This document shows, one piece after another, positions 12,081 to 37,163 of a DNA stretch of 47,977 bases. This DNA is from Acidimicrobiia bacterium (GTDB lineage Bacteria > Actinomycetota > Acidimicrobiia > IMCC26256 > PALSA-555): NCBI GenBank assembly GCA_009694295.1, contig SHVJ01000007.1:1-47977 (forward strand), read 5' to 3'. Both the position numbers and the translations under genes were made by a program. Under the pieces are notes generated by a model. It did no database searches, was not told the DNA's origin, and saw only the letters and a list, made by a program, of their open reading frames with translations. How positions within the stretch are numbered: position 1 is the stretch's first letter; each line of letters begins with the position of its first letter.

Positions 12081-12100
12081 CGACGTGACGGTACCCCGGG

Positions 12101-12155
12101 TGCTCCCAAGGGGGTGCTCCCAAGGGGGTGCTTCCAAGGGGGTGCTTCCAAGGGG
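12101..12155. repeat. 14-bp tandem repeat, 4 units (TGCTYCCAAGGGGG) between divergent genes
   Basis: Units TGCTCCCAAGGGGG x2 then TGCTTCCAAGGGGG x2 (last one base short). Confidence 0.9.
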
Positions 12156-18864: not shown

Positions 18865-19362
18865 TCAGGCGTTGCGTTCGCGGCGCTTCTGATGCCAGCG
18901 CACACCGCCCTGAAGCGCGGCGAGGATCGTGTCGTTGTCGCGTGACAGGCGACGGTGCACCCAACGCTCGAGACCCAAGCGTCGCATCCACGGGTTGAAC
19001 GTCTCGTACGTCTCGCGGAAGTGGATGCGTGTGCGTTTGTTGCCGAGATCTTCGAGGCGGGTGTGACCGGTGGCGCGTGACCAGAGCGGTTTGCCGACCG
19101 CGTCGTAGCGCCACGACTCGTTCGGCTTCACCTCGGTGAGCCACTCCCACGACTGGCCGACGCCGCCGGACCCCAGAACGCGGGGGACCGGGAAGTGGCA
19201 GTGCCGCACCAAGCCTTCACCGATCTCGTCACCAGGATGCAGGATGTCGATGCGGGTGTTCACGTCGCGCGGCTGCGGCCGATCGTCACCGCGGTACCAG
19301 AAGACTTCCCACACGTCTTCGACGGGCGCGTTGACATCGACGGAGAAGTTGTGCTCTTGCAT
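18865..19362 (-). CDS. SRPBCC (START/polyketide-cyclase-like) family protein
   Basis: MQEHNFSVDVNAPVEDVWEVFWYRGDDRPQPRDVNTRIDILHPGDEIGEGLVRHCHFPVPRVLGSGGVGQSWEWLTEVKPNESWRYDAVGKPLWSRATGHTRLEDLGNKRTRIHFRETYETFNP. Confidence 0.78.
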   Translation of the reverse strand: MQEHNFSVDVNAPVEDVWEVFWYRGDDRPQPRDVNTRIDILHPGDEIGEGLVRHCHFPVPRVLGSGGVGQSWEWLTEVKPNESWRYDAVGKPLWSRATGHTRLEDLGNKRTRIHFRETYETFNPWMRRLGLERWVHRRLSRDNDTILAALQGGVRWHQKRRERNA

Positions 19363-19410
19363 CAGGACTTCTGCATTTCAGATCTTCTGCATTTCAGATC
19401 TTCTGCATCA
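19360..19410 (-). repeat. 16-bp tandem repeat ATGCAGAAGATCTGAA forming three 4-codon mini-ORFs between VOC stop and SRPBCC start
   Basis: Minus strand: ccc TGATG cag aag atc TGA a ATG cag aag atc TGA a ATG cag aag tcc TGATG caa gag cac. Confidence 0.95.
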
Positions 19411-19749
19411 GGGGCTCACCTGGATCAGGCAGAACTCGTTGCCTTCGGGATCGGCCATCACCTGGAAGTTCTCGCCGTCGTCCTCCATGACGAGGTCGCC
19501 GAGCCGGATGGCACCGAGCGACTCCGCTCGTTCGATGGCACTCGGCAGGTCGTCGACGTCGAAGTCGAGGTGCATGCGGTTCTTGCCCAACTTGGCTTCC
19601 GGGACCCGCTGGAAGCCCAAGGCGATACCGCCCGACTCGGGCGCCTGGAGTGAGCACCAGTCGGGTTCGCGCGAATCGATCTCCACCCCGGTCAGCACCT
19701 GCCAGAACTCGGCGAGCTGCTCAGGCTCCATGCAGTCGAACACCACCAT
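19408..19749 (-). CDS. VOC (glyoxalase-like) family protein
   Basis: MVVFDCMEPEQLAEFWQVLTGVEIDSREPDWCSLQAPESGGIALGFQRVPEAKLGKNRMHLDFDVDDLPSAIERAESLGAIRLGDLVMEDDGENFQVMADPEGNEFCLIQVSP; a GTG start at 19767 is an alternative. Confidence 0.9.
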   Translation of the reverse strand: MVVFDCMEPEQLAEFWQVLTGVEIDSREPDWCSLQAPESGGIALGFQRVPEAKLGKNRMHLDFDVDDLPSAIERAESLGAIRLGDLVMEDDGENFQVMADPEGNEFCLIQVSP

Positions 19750-19782
19750 GCTGGGTCGGGGCTCCACGGATCCGAATGTACC

Positions 19783-21297
19783 GTGACGCTCGTGGCTCCG
19801 GACCCAGAACCCCACCCTGAACCTCAGGTCCCTGAACCTCAGGTCCCTGAACCTCAGGTCCCTGAACCTCAGGTCCCTGAACCTCAGGTCCCTGAACCTC
19901 AGGTCCCTGAACCTCAGATTGCCGACTCGCTGCTCGACCTCGTAGGCAACACGCCACTGGTGCGCCTCGGCCGAGTCGGCCGCGACCTCGAGTGTGATCT
20001 GGTTGCCAAGGTTGAGATGCTGAACCCCGGAGGCAGTGTCAAGGATCGTCCGGCGATCGCGATGATCGACGCGGCTGAGCGCGACGGCTTGCTGTTGCCC
20101 GGTGGCACGATCGTCGAACCGACTTCGGGCAACACCGGCGTCGGCCTTGCGATTGTTGCCGCGCAACGCGGGTATCGCTGCGTGTTCGTGATGTCCGACA
20201 AGATGAGCGACGAGAAGGTTGCGCTGTTGCGCGCGTACGGCGCCGAAGTGGTGGTGTGCCCGACCGCGGTGCCGCCCGAGCACCCCGATTCGTACTACTC
20301 GGTTGCGGATCGCCTCACGAACGAGATCCCCGGTGCGTTCCGTCCAAACCAGTACTACAACGCGGCGAACCCTGATGAGCACGAGCGCAGCACCGGTCCC
20401 GAGATCTGGGCGCAGACCGCCGGACGCGTCACGCACTTCGTGGCCGGCGTGGGGACGGGTGGCACGATCACCGGCGTCGCGCGCTACTTGAAAGCGCAGA
20501 ACCCGAACGTGCAGATCATCGGCGCCGACCCCGAAGGTTCTGTGTTCTCGGGTGGCACCGGCCGTCCGTACCTCGTCGAAGGCGTTGGCGAAGACTTCTG
20601 GCCGCCTACGTATGACCCGACGGTCGTGGATCGAACCGTGATGGTGAGCGACGCCGAGTCGTTCGCGGCGGCGCGTCGCGTCACCCACGAGGAAGGCTTG
20701 CTCATTGGCGGTTCCGGTGGCACGGCGGTACATGCCGCGTTGGTGGTCGGCGCCGACCTCGGACCCGACGATCTCGTGGTCGTGCTGCTTCCCGACTCCG
20801 GACGTGGGTACATCTCGAAGATCTTCAACGACGAGTGGATGATGCGGTTCGGGTTTCTGCGCGCCGACGGACCGGTCGCTGCGGACGTGCTCGCAGCGAA
20901 GCACGGCGCGGCCGATCGGACGATGCCTGATCTCGTGCTCATCACACCCGACGAGCCGGCGCGACGCGCGTTCGGTCTCATGCGCGACCTCGGCGTGTCG
21001 CAGGTGATCGTGAGCGTGGCGACCGAGCTTCCACTCGCAGCCAAAGAGGTGAGTGGCACGCTCACCGAGCTCCAGCTCATGGACAAGGCGTTCCACGATC
21101 CGGCCGTGCTCGACCGGCCGGTTCGCGACGTGATGGAGCCCACGCTCCCGATGGTCGGGATCGGCGAACCGGTCTCGATCCTCGTGGAGTACCTCGATCG
21201 CGCAGCCGGCGTGCTCGTGCTCGACGGCGGTCACCCCATCGGAGTGCTCACCACCCAAGACGTCCTGAGCTTCCTCGCCGAACGGTCCCCCGGATGA
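19783..21297 (+). CDS. cbs: Cystathionine beta-synthase (PLP domain + C-terminal CBS domains) with N-terminal PEPQV repeat
   Basis: LLDLVGNTPLVRLGRVGRDLECDLVAKVEMLNPGGSVKDRPAIAMIDAAERDG...PTSGNTGVGLAIVAAQRGY...GVGTGGTITGVARYLK...GSGGTAVHAAL; C-terminal VRDVMEPTLPMVGIGEPVSILVEYLDRAAGVLVLDGGHPIGVLTTQDVLSFL. Confidence 0.93.
   Translation: MTLVAPDPEPHPEPQVPEPQVPEPQVPEPQVPEPQVPEPQVPEPQIADSLLDLVGNTPLVRLGRVGRDLECDLVAKVEMLNPGGSVKDRPAIAMIDAAERDGLLLPGGTIVEPTSGNTGVGLAIVAAQRGYRCVFVMSDKMSDEKVALLRAYGAEVVVCPTAVPPEHPDSYYSVADRLTNEIPGAFRPNQYYNAANPDEHERSTGPEIWAQTAGRVTHFVAGVGTGGTITGVARYLKAQNPNVQIIGADPEGSVFSGGTGRPYLVEGVGEDFWPPTYDPTVVDRTVMVSDAESFAAARRVTHEEGLLIGGSGGTAVHAALVVGADLGPDDLVVVLLPDSGRGYISKIFNDEWMMRFGFLRADGPVAADVLAAKHGAADRTMPDLVLITPDEPARRAFGLMRDLGVSQVIVSVATELPLAAKEVSGTLTELQLMDKAFHDPAVLDRPVRDVMEPTLPMVGIGEPVSILVEYLDRAAGVLVLDGGHPIGVLTTQDVLSFLAERSPG
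19816..19920 (+). repeat. 15-bp in-frame tandem repeat, 7 units (CCTGAACCTCAGGTC = PEPQV)
   Basis: Six identical units plus one ending GATT; each unit is itself a dyad CCTGA-acc-TCAGG. Confidence 0.97.
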
Positions 21298-21354: not shown

Positions 21355-22552
21355 CGAAGACGGAGCCGGGTTCGATCCCGCTTTCGATCCCGGTTTCGAT
21401 CCCGGTTTCGATCCGGGTTTCGAGACCAGGGCGATCCACGCGGGGCAGCCGGCCGATCCGCGCACGGGTGCTGTGGTCACGCCGATCAGCTTGGCGACCA
21501 CGTTTCAGCAATCGGCCGTAGGCGAGCACGCCGGCTTCGAGTACGGGCGCACCGGGAGTCCGACGCGCCAGGCGCTCGAGGAATGCATCGCGTCGTTGGA
21601 AGGCGGTGCGCACGGGCTCGCCTTCGCCAGCGGCATGGCCGCCGAAGACGCGGTGCTGCGCGCGCTCGTCGCACCGGGTGATCACGTGGTCATCCCGACC
21701 GATGCGTACGGCGGCACCTACCGACTCGTGTCGCAGGTGCTCGCGCCCACGGGCGTCGAGTGGAGCGCGGTCGACCTCACGGCGCCCAACGACCTCACCC
21801 GTTCGCTGCCCGAGAACACTCGGGTGGTGTGGGTCGAGACGCCGACCAACCCGACGCTCACATGCGTCGACATCGCCGCGGTGGCTGCCGCCGCGCACGA
21901 GCGCGGCGCGCTCGTGGTCGTCGACAACACGTTTGCGACGCCGTACCTCCAGCAGCCGCTCGCACTTGGTGCCGACGTTGTCGTGCACTCGAGCACGAAG
22001 TACCTCGGCGGCCACTCCGACGTGGTGGGTGGAGCGGTTGTGCTGACCGACGACGACCTCGCCGCGAAGATCGCGTACCTCCAGAACGCGGTCGGCGCCG
22101 TCCCGTCGCCGTTCGACTGCTACCTCGTACTGCGCGGGATCAAGACCCTGGCCGTCCGCATGGACCGTCATTGCGAGAACGCGCGTGCAGTGGTGGCCAT
22201 GCTCGAAGCGCACTCGGGTGTGGCCAACGTGCTCTATCCCGGCCTCGCCACACACCCCGGCCATGAAGTCGCCCAACGTCAGATGCGCGACTTCGGTGGC
22301 ATGGTCAGCTTCATGGCTGCTGGGGGCGAAGCCGCGGCGGTGGCGCTCGTCGCCAAGACGCGCGTCTTCGCGCTGGCGGAGTCGCTCGGCGCGGTCGAGT
22401 CACTCATCGAGCACCCCGCGCGCATGACGCATGCATCCGCCGCCGACTCTCCACTGGCTGTCGATCCGGCACTCGTGCGCCTGAGCGTGGGCATCGAGAC
22501 CGCCGCCGACCTCGTCGCCGATCTCCGCCAAGCCCTCGACGCTGTGACCTGA
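21344..22552 (+). CDS. Cystathionine gamma-synthase/lyase (Cys/Met metabolism PLP enzyme)
   Basis: FETRAIHAGQPADPRTGAVVTPISLATTFQQ...FEYGRTGSPTRQALEECIASLEGG...SGMAAEDAVLRAL...VWVETPTNPTLTCVDIAAVAAAAHERGALVVVDNTFATPYLQQPLALGADVVVHSSTKYLGGHSDVVGG. Confidence 0.95.
   Translation: MTKYEDGAGFDPAFDPGFDPGFDPGFETRAIHAGQPADPRTGAVVTPISLATTFQQSAVGEHAGFEYGRTGSPTRQALEECIASLEGGAHGLAFASGMAAEDAVLRALVAPGDHVVIPTDAYGGTYRLVSQVLAPTGVEWSAVDLTAPNDLTRSLPENTRVVWVETPTNPTLTCVDIAAVAAAAHERGALVVVDNTFATPYLQQPLALGADVVVHSSTKYLGGHSDVVGGAVVLTDDDLAAKIAYLQNAVGAVPSPFDCYLVLRGIKTLAVRMDRHCENARAVVAMLEAHSGVANVLYPGLATHPGHEVAQRQMRDFGGMVSFMAAGGEAAAVALVAKTRVFALAESLGAVESLIEHPARMTHASAADSPLAVDPALVRLSVGIETAADLVADLRQALDAVT
21371..21418 (+). 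repeat. 12-bp in-frame tandem repeat, 4 units (TTCGATCCCGGT = FDPG)
   Basis: FDPA-FDPG-FDPG-FDPG immediately before the conserved FETRAIHAGQ motif. Confidence 0.95.
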
Positions 22553-37001: not shown

Positions 37002-37163
37002 CGGAGCGGGAGCGGAGCAATGGTGGGCCTGCGGAGCGAGCGAAGTGGATGAAGCGAGCGGAGCGAGGCGGAAGTAGCGGAGCGGGAGCGGAGCAATGGT
37101 GGGCCTGCGGAGCGGGAGCGGAGCAATGGTGGGCCTGCGGAGCGGGAGCGGAGCAATGGTGGG
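37001..37163. repeat. 30-bp tandem repeat (GCGGAGCGGGAGCGGAGCAATGGTGGGCCT), 1 + 3 units split by 46 bp of related GAGCG-rich sequence
   Basis: Units at 37001-37030, 37077-37106, 37107-37136 and a partial unit at 37137-37163, directly after the LLM stop codon and before tatA. Confidence 0.93.

Follow-up and report, generated by a model that had tools for sequence, protein, structure and literature searches.

Tandem stop/start arrays at gene junctions in an acidimicrobial order: candidate relays for serial translation reinitiation

A 46-nt tandem array separates two genes of an Acidimicrobiia bacterium (assembly GCA_009694295.1, contig SHVJ01000007.1; positions 1 to 47,977, hereafter the window, comprise the 47,977 nt that were analyzed) and forms an uninterrupted succession of three 4-codon open reading frames (mini-ORFs) leading from the stop codon of a VOC/glyoxalase-like gene (VOC) to the start codon of a gene for an SRPBCC-type protein (SRPBCC). 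The best explanation, which we consider somewhat better than an even bet, is that a duplicated TGATG junction became a chain of mini-cistrons that relays ribosomes from VOC to SRPBCC. Comparable junctions recur in this order, and we propose the name stop/start relay arrays for the class to which the locus belongs: the array tiles a gene junction, the upstream stop lies in or near the first unit, the downstream start lies in the last unit, and the chain between them is unbroken.

The minus strand, on which both genes are encoded, reads ...CAGGTGAGCCCC TGATG CAGAAGATC TGA A ATG CAGAAGATC TGA A ATG CAGAAGTCC TGATG CAAGAGCAC... from the end of VOC to the start of SRPBCC. The VOC stop codon TGA (19410-19408) overlaps by 1 nt with mini-ORF 1 (MQKI*, 19394..19408, ATG1 at 19408); mini-ORF 2 (MQKI*, 19378..19392, ATG2 at 19392) starts 1 nt past mini-ORF 1; mini-ORF 3 (MQKS*, 19362..19376, ATG3 at 19376) starts 1 nt past mini-ORF 2; and the stop of mini-ORF 3 shares 1 nt with the SRPBCC ATG (19362). 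The successive stop-to-start gaps are -1, +1, +1, and -1, all within the spacing of coupled gene pairs (stop to next start about -8 to +10 nt). These observations confirm, base for base, the stop/restart chain that a sequence-only reading of the window had described between the two genes. That reading had the junction tiled by 16-bp units, which holds for two identical 16-nt units but not for the third, which is only 14 nt long: when compared with the corresponding junctions of three other genomes, the inserted array (19363..19408, minus strand) comprises 2 x ATGCAGAAGATCTGAA + ATGCAGAAGTCCTG. Tandem Repeats Finder (TRF) placed a 16-nt repeat with a copy number of 2.6 and 100% identity at 19368-19408.

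The pattern ATG-N9-TGA-N-ATG-N9-TGA matched the window twice, both times at this junction. The three-start form matched once among 58 genomes of the order, at this locus, in the one genome that carries the array. A chance origin is ruled out by the shuffle expectation for the pattern (0.01) and by the reversed control for the three-start form (0), and an assembly artefact is an unlikely source of the 46-nt insert. RNA structure was rejected as the purpose of the insert, as its fold z-score (-1.33) was unremarkable.

VOC (19408..19767, minus strand) is assigned to Glyoxalase_6 (Pfam PF18029, E = 2e-30) and could start at GTG 19767 or ATG 19749, the former lying 7 nt behind a conserved TACATT. 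This motif (window 19767-19780) is conserved across four genomes of the genus (G000, the genome of the window, and G001 to G003; loci L003 and L005), where it precedes the first start codon in the operon by about 7 nt, a placement that suggests leaderless transcripts. SRPBCC, the downstream gene (18865..19362, minus strand), resembles Polyketide_cyc2 (Pfam PF10604, E = 4e-5, below its cut-off), and its orthologues in the genus are up to 94% identical. The start assigned to it is correct: its alignments with homologues extend back to residue 1, and the homologues open with MQ(E/V/R)H. A divergent cystathionine beta-synthase-like gene 400 bp away carries seven perfect 15-bp repeats (PEPQV) at its N-terminus in G000 (window 19815-19917), a different 12-bp repeat (SGPE) in the same place in G003 (L098 2359-2413), and no repeats in G001 or G002. 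Just inside this gene (window about 19770-19790), G000 has one base more than G003 (GAGCGTC versus GAGGTC, minus strand). Unless it is an assembly error, this base shifts the conserved ATG (MYRD...) into another frame, and GTG 19783 may have taken over as the start codon.

Comparison of orthologous junctions bears on the origin of the array. The genome of the window comprises 2.1 Mb and is 64.5% complete, and the genomes compared with it are metagenome-assembled. In G003, VOC and SRPBCC are 94% and 91% identical to their counterparts in the window, and the junction reads GTGACCCCCTAA|ATGCAGGTT (TAA|ATG) without an insert, while in two genomes of another family (G039 and G022) it is a plain TGATG. 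G001 and G002 are without this VOC, and SRPBCC there starts 7-8 nt behind the conserved TACATT. Deletion of the 46 nt from G000 in silico yields an ancestral-type TGATG overlap with a G003-like layout. Collectively, these comparisons indicate that the array is a young, lineage-specific insertion. Unit number, which the sequence-only reading had proposed to compare among related genomes, indeed differs, from three in G000 to none in G003. An orthologous locus without the repeat but with identical expression had been named as a potential refutation, and the first half of this holds: G003 is repeat-free, but its genes still directly abut, such that the presence of the array makes no difference to whether coupling is plausible.

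The third unit, ATGCAGAAGTCCTG, is identical at 12 of 14 positions to ATGCAGGAG (the 9-nt SRPBCC start of the family) followed by CCCTG (5 nt of the VOC tail), and 7 of 9 positions match when the forced start and stop letters are excluded (P about 0.001). Because the inserted unit resembles the stop/start junction, tandem duplication of the overlap is the simplest origin, and the array probably arose in this way. In silico, 33% of all possible junction-spanning duplications give an immediate relay, in which a stop overlaps the next start.

Insertion of the array has displaced the SRPBCC start from its Shine-Dalgarno sequence. A Shine-Dalgarno-like AGGTGA (19416..19421, minus strand) lies 7 nt before ATG1, and in repeat-free G003 this element directly serves SRPBCC. 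The predicted anti-Shine-Dalgarno duplex at ATG1 (-3.8 kcal/mol) equals that at the SRPBCC start of G003, as opposed to -1.5 kcal/mol at both ATG2 and ATG3 and -1.0 kcal/mol at the SRPBCC start in G000. We infer serial reinitiation through the mini-ORFs as follows. The overlapping stop/start junction of VOC and SRPBCC would have been duplicated in tandem, leaving both proteins unaltered; as every copy of the junction supplies a stop together with a start, duplications of suitable length generate a chain of tiny cistrons. A ribosome finishing VOC would most likely re-start at the overlapping ATG1, read four codons, stop, and re-start 1 nt on, repeatedly, and it would reach the SRPBCC start after four hand-overs, with selection presumably preserving the coupling. 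The four successive hand-overs envisaged in the sequence-only reading are real as geometry, and frame-biased relays recur at operon junctions (see below), although the evidence for ribosome passage is comparative and comes from sequence.

It is disputed whether reinitiating ribosomes scan across gaps or need to restart immediately (PMC10666635, PMC12548453). In reporters built on six native gene pairs, reinitiation was lost or nearly so once the gap reached about 20 nt, and in Escherichia coli and Haloferax it drops sharply with distance and is nearly gone at 20-38 nt (PMC10666635); coupling over long gaps has been claimed in some published work, as discussed in the same paper. If reinitiation is limited by distance, a bare 46-nt gap should uncouple SRPBCC from VOC, whereas mini-ORFs that keep every gap within -1 to +1 would allow coupling to survive the insert.

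To define the class, we searched for tandem (RTGA N10) chains, which correspond to 5-codon ORFs with -4 overlaps, in the same 58 genomes. This yielded 104 matches versus 35 for the reversed control (12 versus 0 in G000); 60 loci were retrieved for period 14, and comparison arrays of period 13, 15, and 17 were added. Tandem relays of 5- or 6-codon ORFs were identified at 32 operon junctions in 17 genomes. All 32 of these strict chains run unbroken from the first start to the downstream gene, with a -4 gap at each step, and the downstream gene begins at the last start of the chain. Most of them have the upstream stop within the first unit; in two (L185, L213) it falls one unit later, and in three (L162, L198, L203) it precedes the array by a few nucleotides. 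The tiling and the unbroken chain are common to the window locus and the 32 strict cases. The frame relationship of the class (a period of 2 mod 3 with a -1 or -4 overlap) is attained at the window by another path, in that its unit is 16 nt with +1 gaps (a 15-nt ORF plus 1), unlike the 14- or 17-nt, -4 form of the class.

Pfam assignments show that genes flanking relays are genuine (gatA-gatB, cmk-plsC, alanine racemase (alr)-hydrolase, SDR-SDR, acyltransferase-glycosyltransferase, ArsA-ArsA, and plsY-MFS). The purN-purH junction, with gene names assigned by reading translations, is a plain GTGA in G000 and carries three units in G056 and five in G057. Where orthologous junctions were compared in sequence, most consisted of a plain overlap or a short Shine-Dalgarno spacer, and the unit sequence differs at every relay locus. 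In 11 of the 32 arrays the identity of the letters between RTGA motifs has dropped to less than 80%, with the motifs themselves preserved, which suggests that starts and stops have been kept, with the reservation that RTGA was the search key and its presence is therefore ascertained. Two sets of candidates were rejected. A perfect 14-nt TGATG chain in G000 (C21:10246) is flanked by ORFs that look non-coding and are antisense to neighboring genes. Loci L140-L144 of genus g162 fit ATGN9TGANATG but are 16-nt repeats (ATGCTGACNAGCTGAA) dispersed between genes, with inverted copies in their vicinity and mostly off stop/start junctions, so a match to the pattern does not by itself establish a relay.

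The distribution of repeat lengths provides the main argument that ribosomes use such chains. The class statistic covers four periods, 13, 14, 15, and 17 nt, with period 15 represented by a sample (about 28 of 70 arrays). According to a codon-usage classifier, co-directional junctions hosted none of 15 arrays of 13 nt and none of 28 of 15 nt, as compared to 23 of 58 of 14 nt and 9 of 17 of 17 nt; strict junction arrays thus number 32/75 for 14/17 nt versus 0/43 for 13/15 nt (Fisher P = 4e-8). Under a looser criterion of ORF length only, the corresponding values are 42/67 and 7/40 (P = 7e-6). Ratios of real to reversed-pattern matches are alike for all four periods (about 2.3-3.8), indicating that the bias concerns where arrays sit rather than raw counts; raw counts against the reversed pattern were rejected as a measure because they do not separate the periods. 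Since a 13-nt array can relay across two units and a 15-nt array can serve as an N-terminal extension, both have workable routes, and the bias is a preference and not a prohibition. Under independent downstream initiation repeat length would be irrelevant, and the observed bias says that length matters. The frame bias therefore supports, as comparative and indirect evidence, the passage of ribosomes through the mini-ORFs.

TRF was applied to 1.14 Mb of G000 and G003, chosen independently of the relay pattern except for contigs C21, C24, C28, C70, C84, and C89. In-gene arrays in this sequence fit coding constraint (88, 11, and 7 with periods of 0, 1, and 2 mod 3, respectively). Only a small number of arrays cover both the stop of one gene and the start of the next, and within this small number all are of relay type: L280 and L284 (14 nt), L308 (14 nt, its relay stopping 10 nt short of a start that has a strong Shine-Dalgarno), and the window locus, which the gene caller used did not itself mark as a junction.

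These same genomes supply the case for a neutral by-product, in which one of the many tandem arrays of this genome fell on the junction, SRPBCC is started independently, and the mini-ORFs go untranslated. Clean tandem arrays number 21 in 432 kb of G000 and G003 (about 5 per 100 kb) and 0 in 208 kb of G001 and G002, so that raw material for an array is ordinary in this repeat-rich lineage; two other arrays in G000 just copy the stop codon of a gene; the one third of junction duplications that yield a relay do so automatically; and SRPBCC occurs in G001 and G002 with no VOC upstream. We nevertheless judge this explanation unlikely, at roughly one chance in four, given that independent initiation would not account for the bias in repeat length at junctions and that the SRPBCC start in G000 has almost no Shine-Dalgarno pairing. 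The tandem-array load (L101-L137, L275-L314) is unusually heavy in G000 and G003 when compared to G001 and G002 of the same genus. Loss of NucS mismatch repair was considered as a cause of this load; NucS is present in G003 and had no match in G000, a genome that is 64.5% complete. Arrays that copy a stop codon comprise a 13 bp x 5.7 array behind clpC with TAG in each unit (L107 2610-2683) and a 10 bp x 2.6 array at the TAA that ends an agmatine deiminase-like gene (L123 9886-9911). Further perfect or near-perfect arrays lie in the window at 12098-12155 (14 bp x 4.1), 21366-21423 (12 bp x 4.8), and 37077-37163 (30 bp x 2.9).

A contingency (phase-variable) switch, in which slippage alters unit number and thereby tunes the level of SRPBCC, as the sequence-only reading had proposed, is consistent with the identity of units 1 and 2 and with copy numbers that differ between species (0 versus 3 here; 0, 3, and 5 at purN-purH). 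We consider it improbable: with efficient hand-over a change in unit number would in principle matter little, and genes behind relays (gatB, purH, alr) are housekeeping genes rather than typical contingency genes. Insertion of a MIRU-like mobile repeat at the start codon was rejected as highly improbable, for while MIRUs, as presented in PMC12548453, also bear an ORF coupled to its target by start/stop overlap, the DNA of this locus matches once in G000 with no second copy, and relay loci have units of 14-17 nt whose sequence differs from one locus to the next.

The reading of the window locus as a ribosome relay may extend further. It is possible, though we put this slightly short of even, that relay arrays constitute a general and undescribed junction architecture in which ribosomes walk 3-7 serial mini-cistrons and selection keeps only permissive repeat lengths. 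If so, repeat-length spectra at gene overlaps would reveal genome-wide where termination-reinitiation is essential, and unit number could serve as a graded attenuator of the downstream gene. The frame bias of overlap repeats provides a sequence-only readout of coupling in unculturable bacteria. Natural stop/start chains of 0 to 6 units at real operon junctions represent ready-made test constructs for the dispute over scanning and immediate restart.

We found no description of tandem stop/start relay arrays in the open-access literature, subscription papers being outside the search. Bacterial minisatellite (VNTR) arrays are likewise perfect, short, lineage-specific tandem repeats, whereas relay arrays coincide precisely with stop/start junctions, and their period preserves the frame of the relay. 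Termination-reinitiation overlaps (ATGA/TGATG) share with them a stop and start that overlap or lie within 1 nt and a distance-sensitive hand-over, to which relay arrays add three or more stop/start steps in series between the genes. ORF-11, ORF-17, and ORF-18 of integron attI1 are very short upstream ORFs that boost translation of the next gene by coupling (PMC8876359), and, as with similar short upstream ORFs, a tiny ORF delivers ribosomes to the next gene; unlike relay arrays, each stands alone as a conserved leader ORF that has a strong ribosome site of its own, with no tandem chain and away from operon junctions. The nearest known relative in how it works is the MIRU (Supply et al., 1997, cited in PMC12548453), in which, according to the citing paper, the repeat ORF couples to the target gene by a -4 overlap. 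As summarized there, MIRUs too are repeats at actinobacterial gene junctions whose ORF start/stop overlaps couple the neighboring gene, such that insertion spares expression, and some MIRU loci are variable-number tandem repeats. The geometry of a start/stop-overlapping ORF is found in relay arrays as well, with -1/+1 gaps at the window and -4 elsewhere. A shared dispersed repeat is not, as judged from the single match of the window locus in its genome and from relay units that all differ. MIRUs, in the same summary, share one dispersed and apparently mobile sequence, whereas relay arrays have at each locus their own, apparently junction-derived unit of 14-17 nt, arranged as 3-7 mini-ORFs of 4-6 codons.
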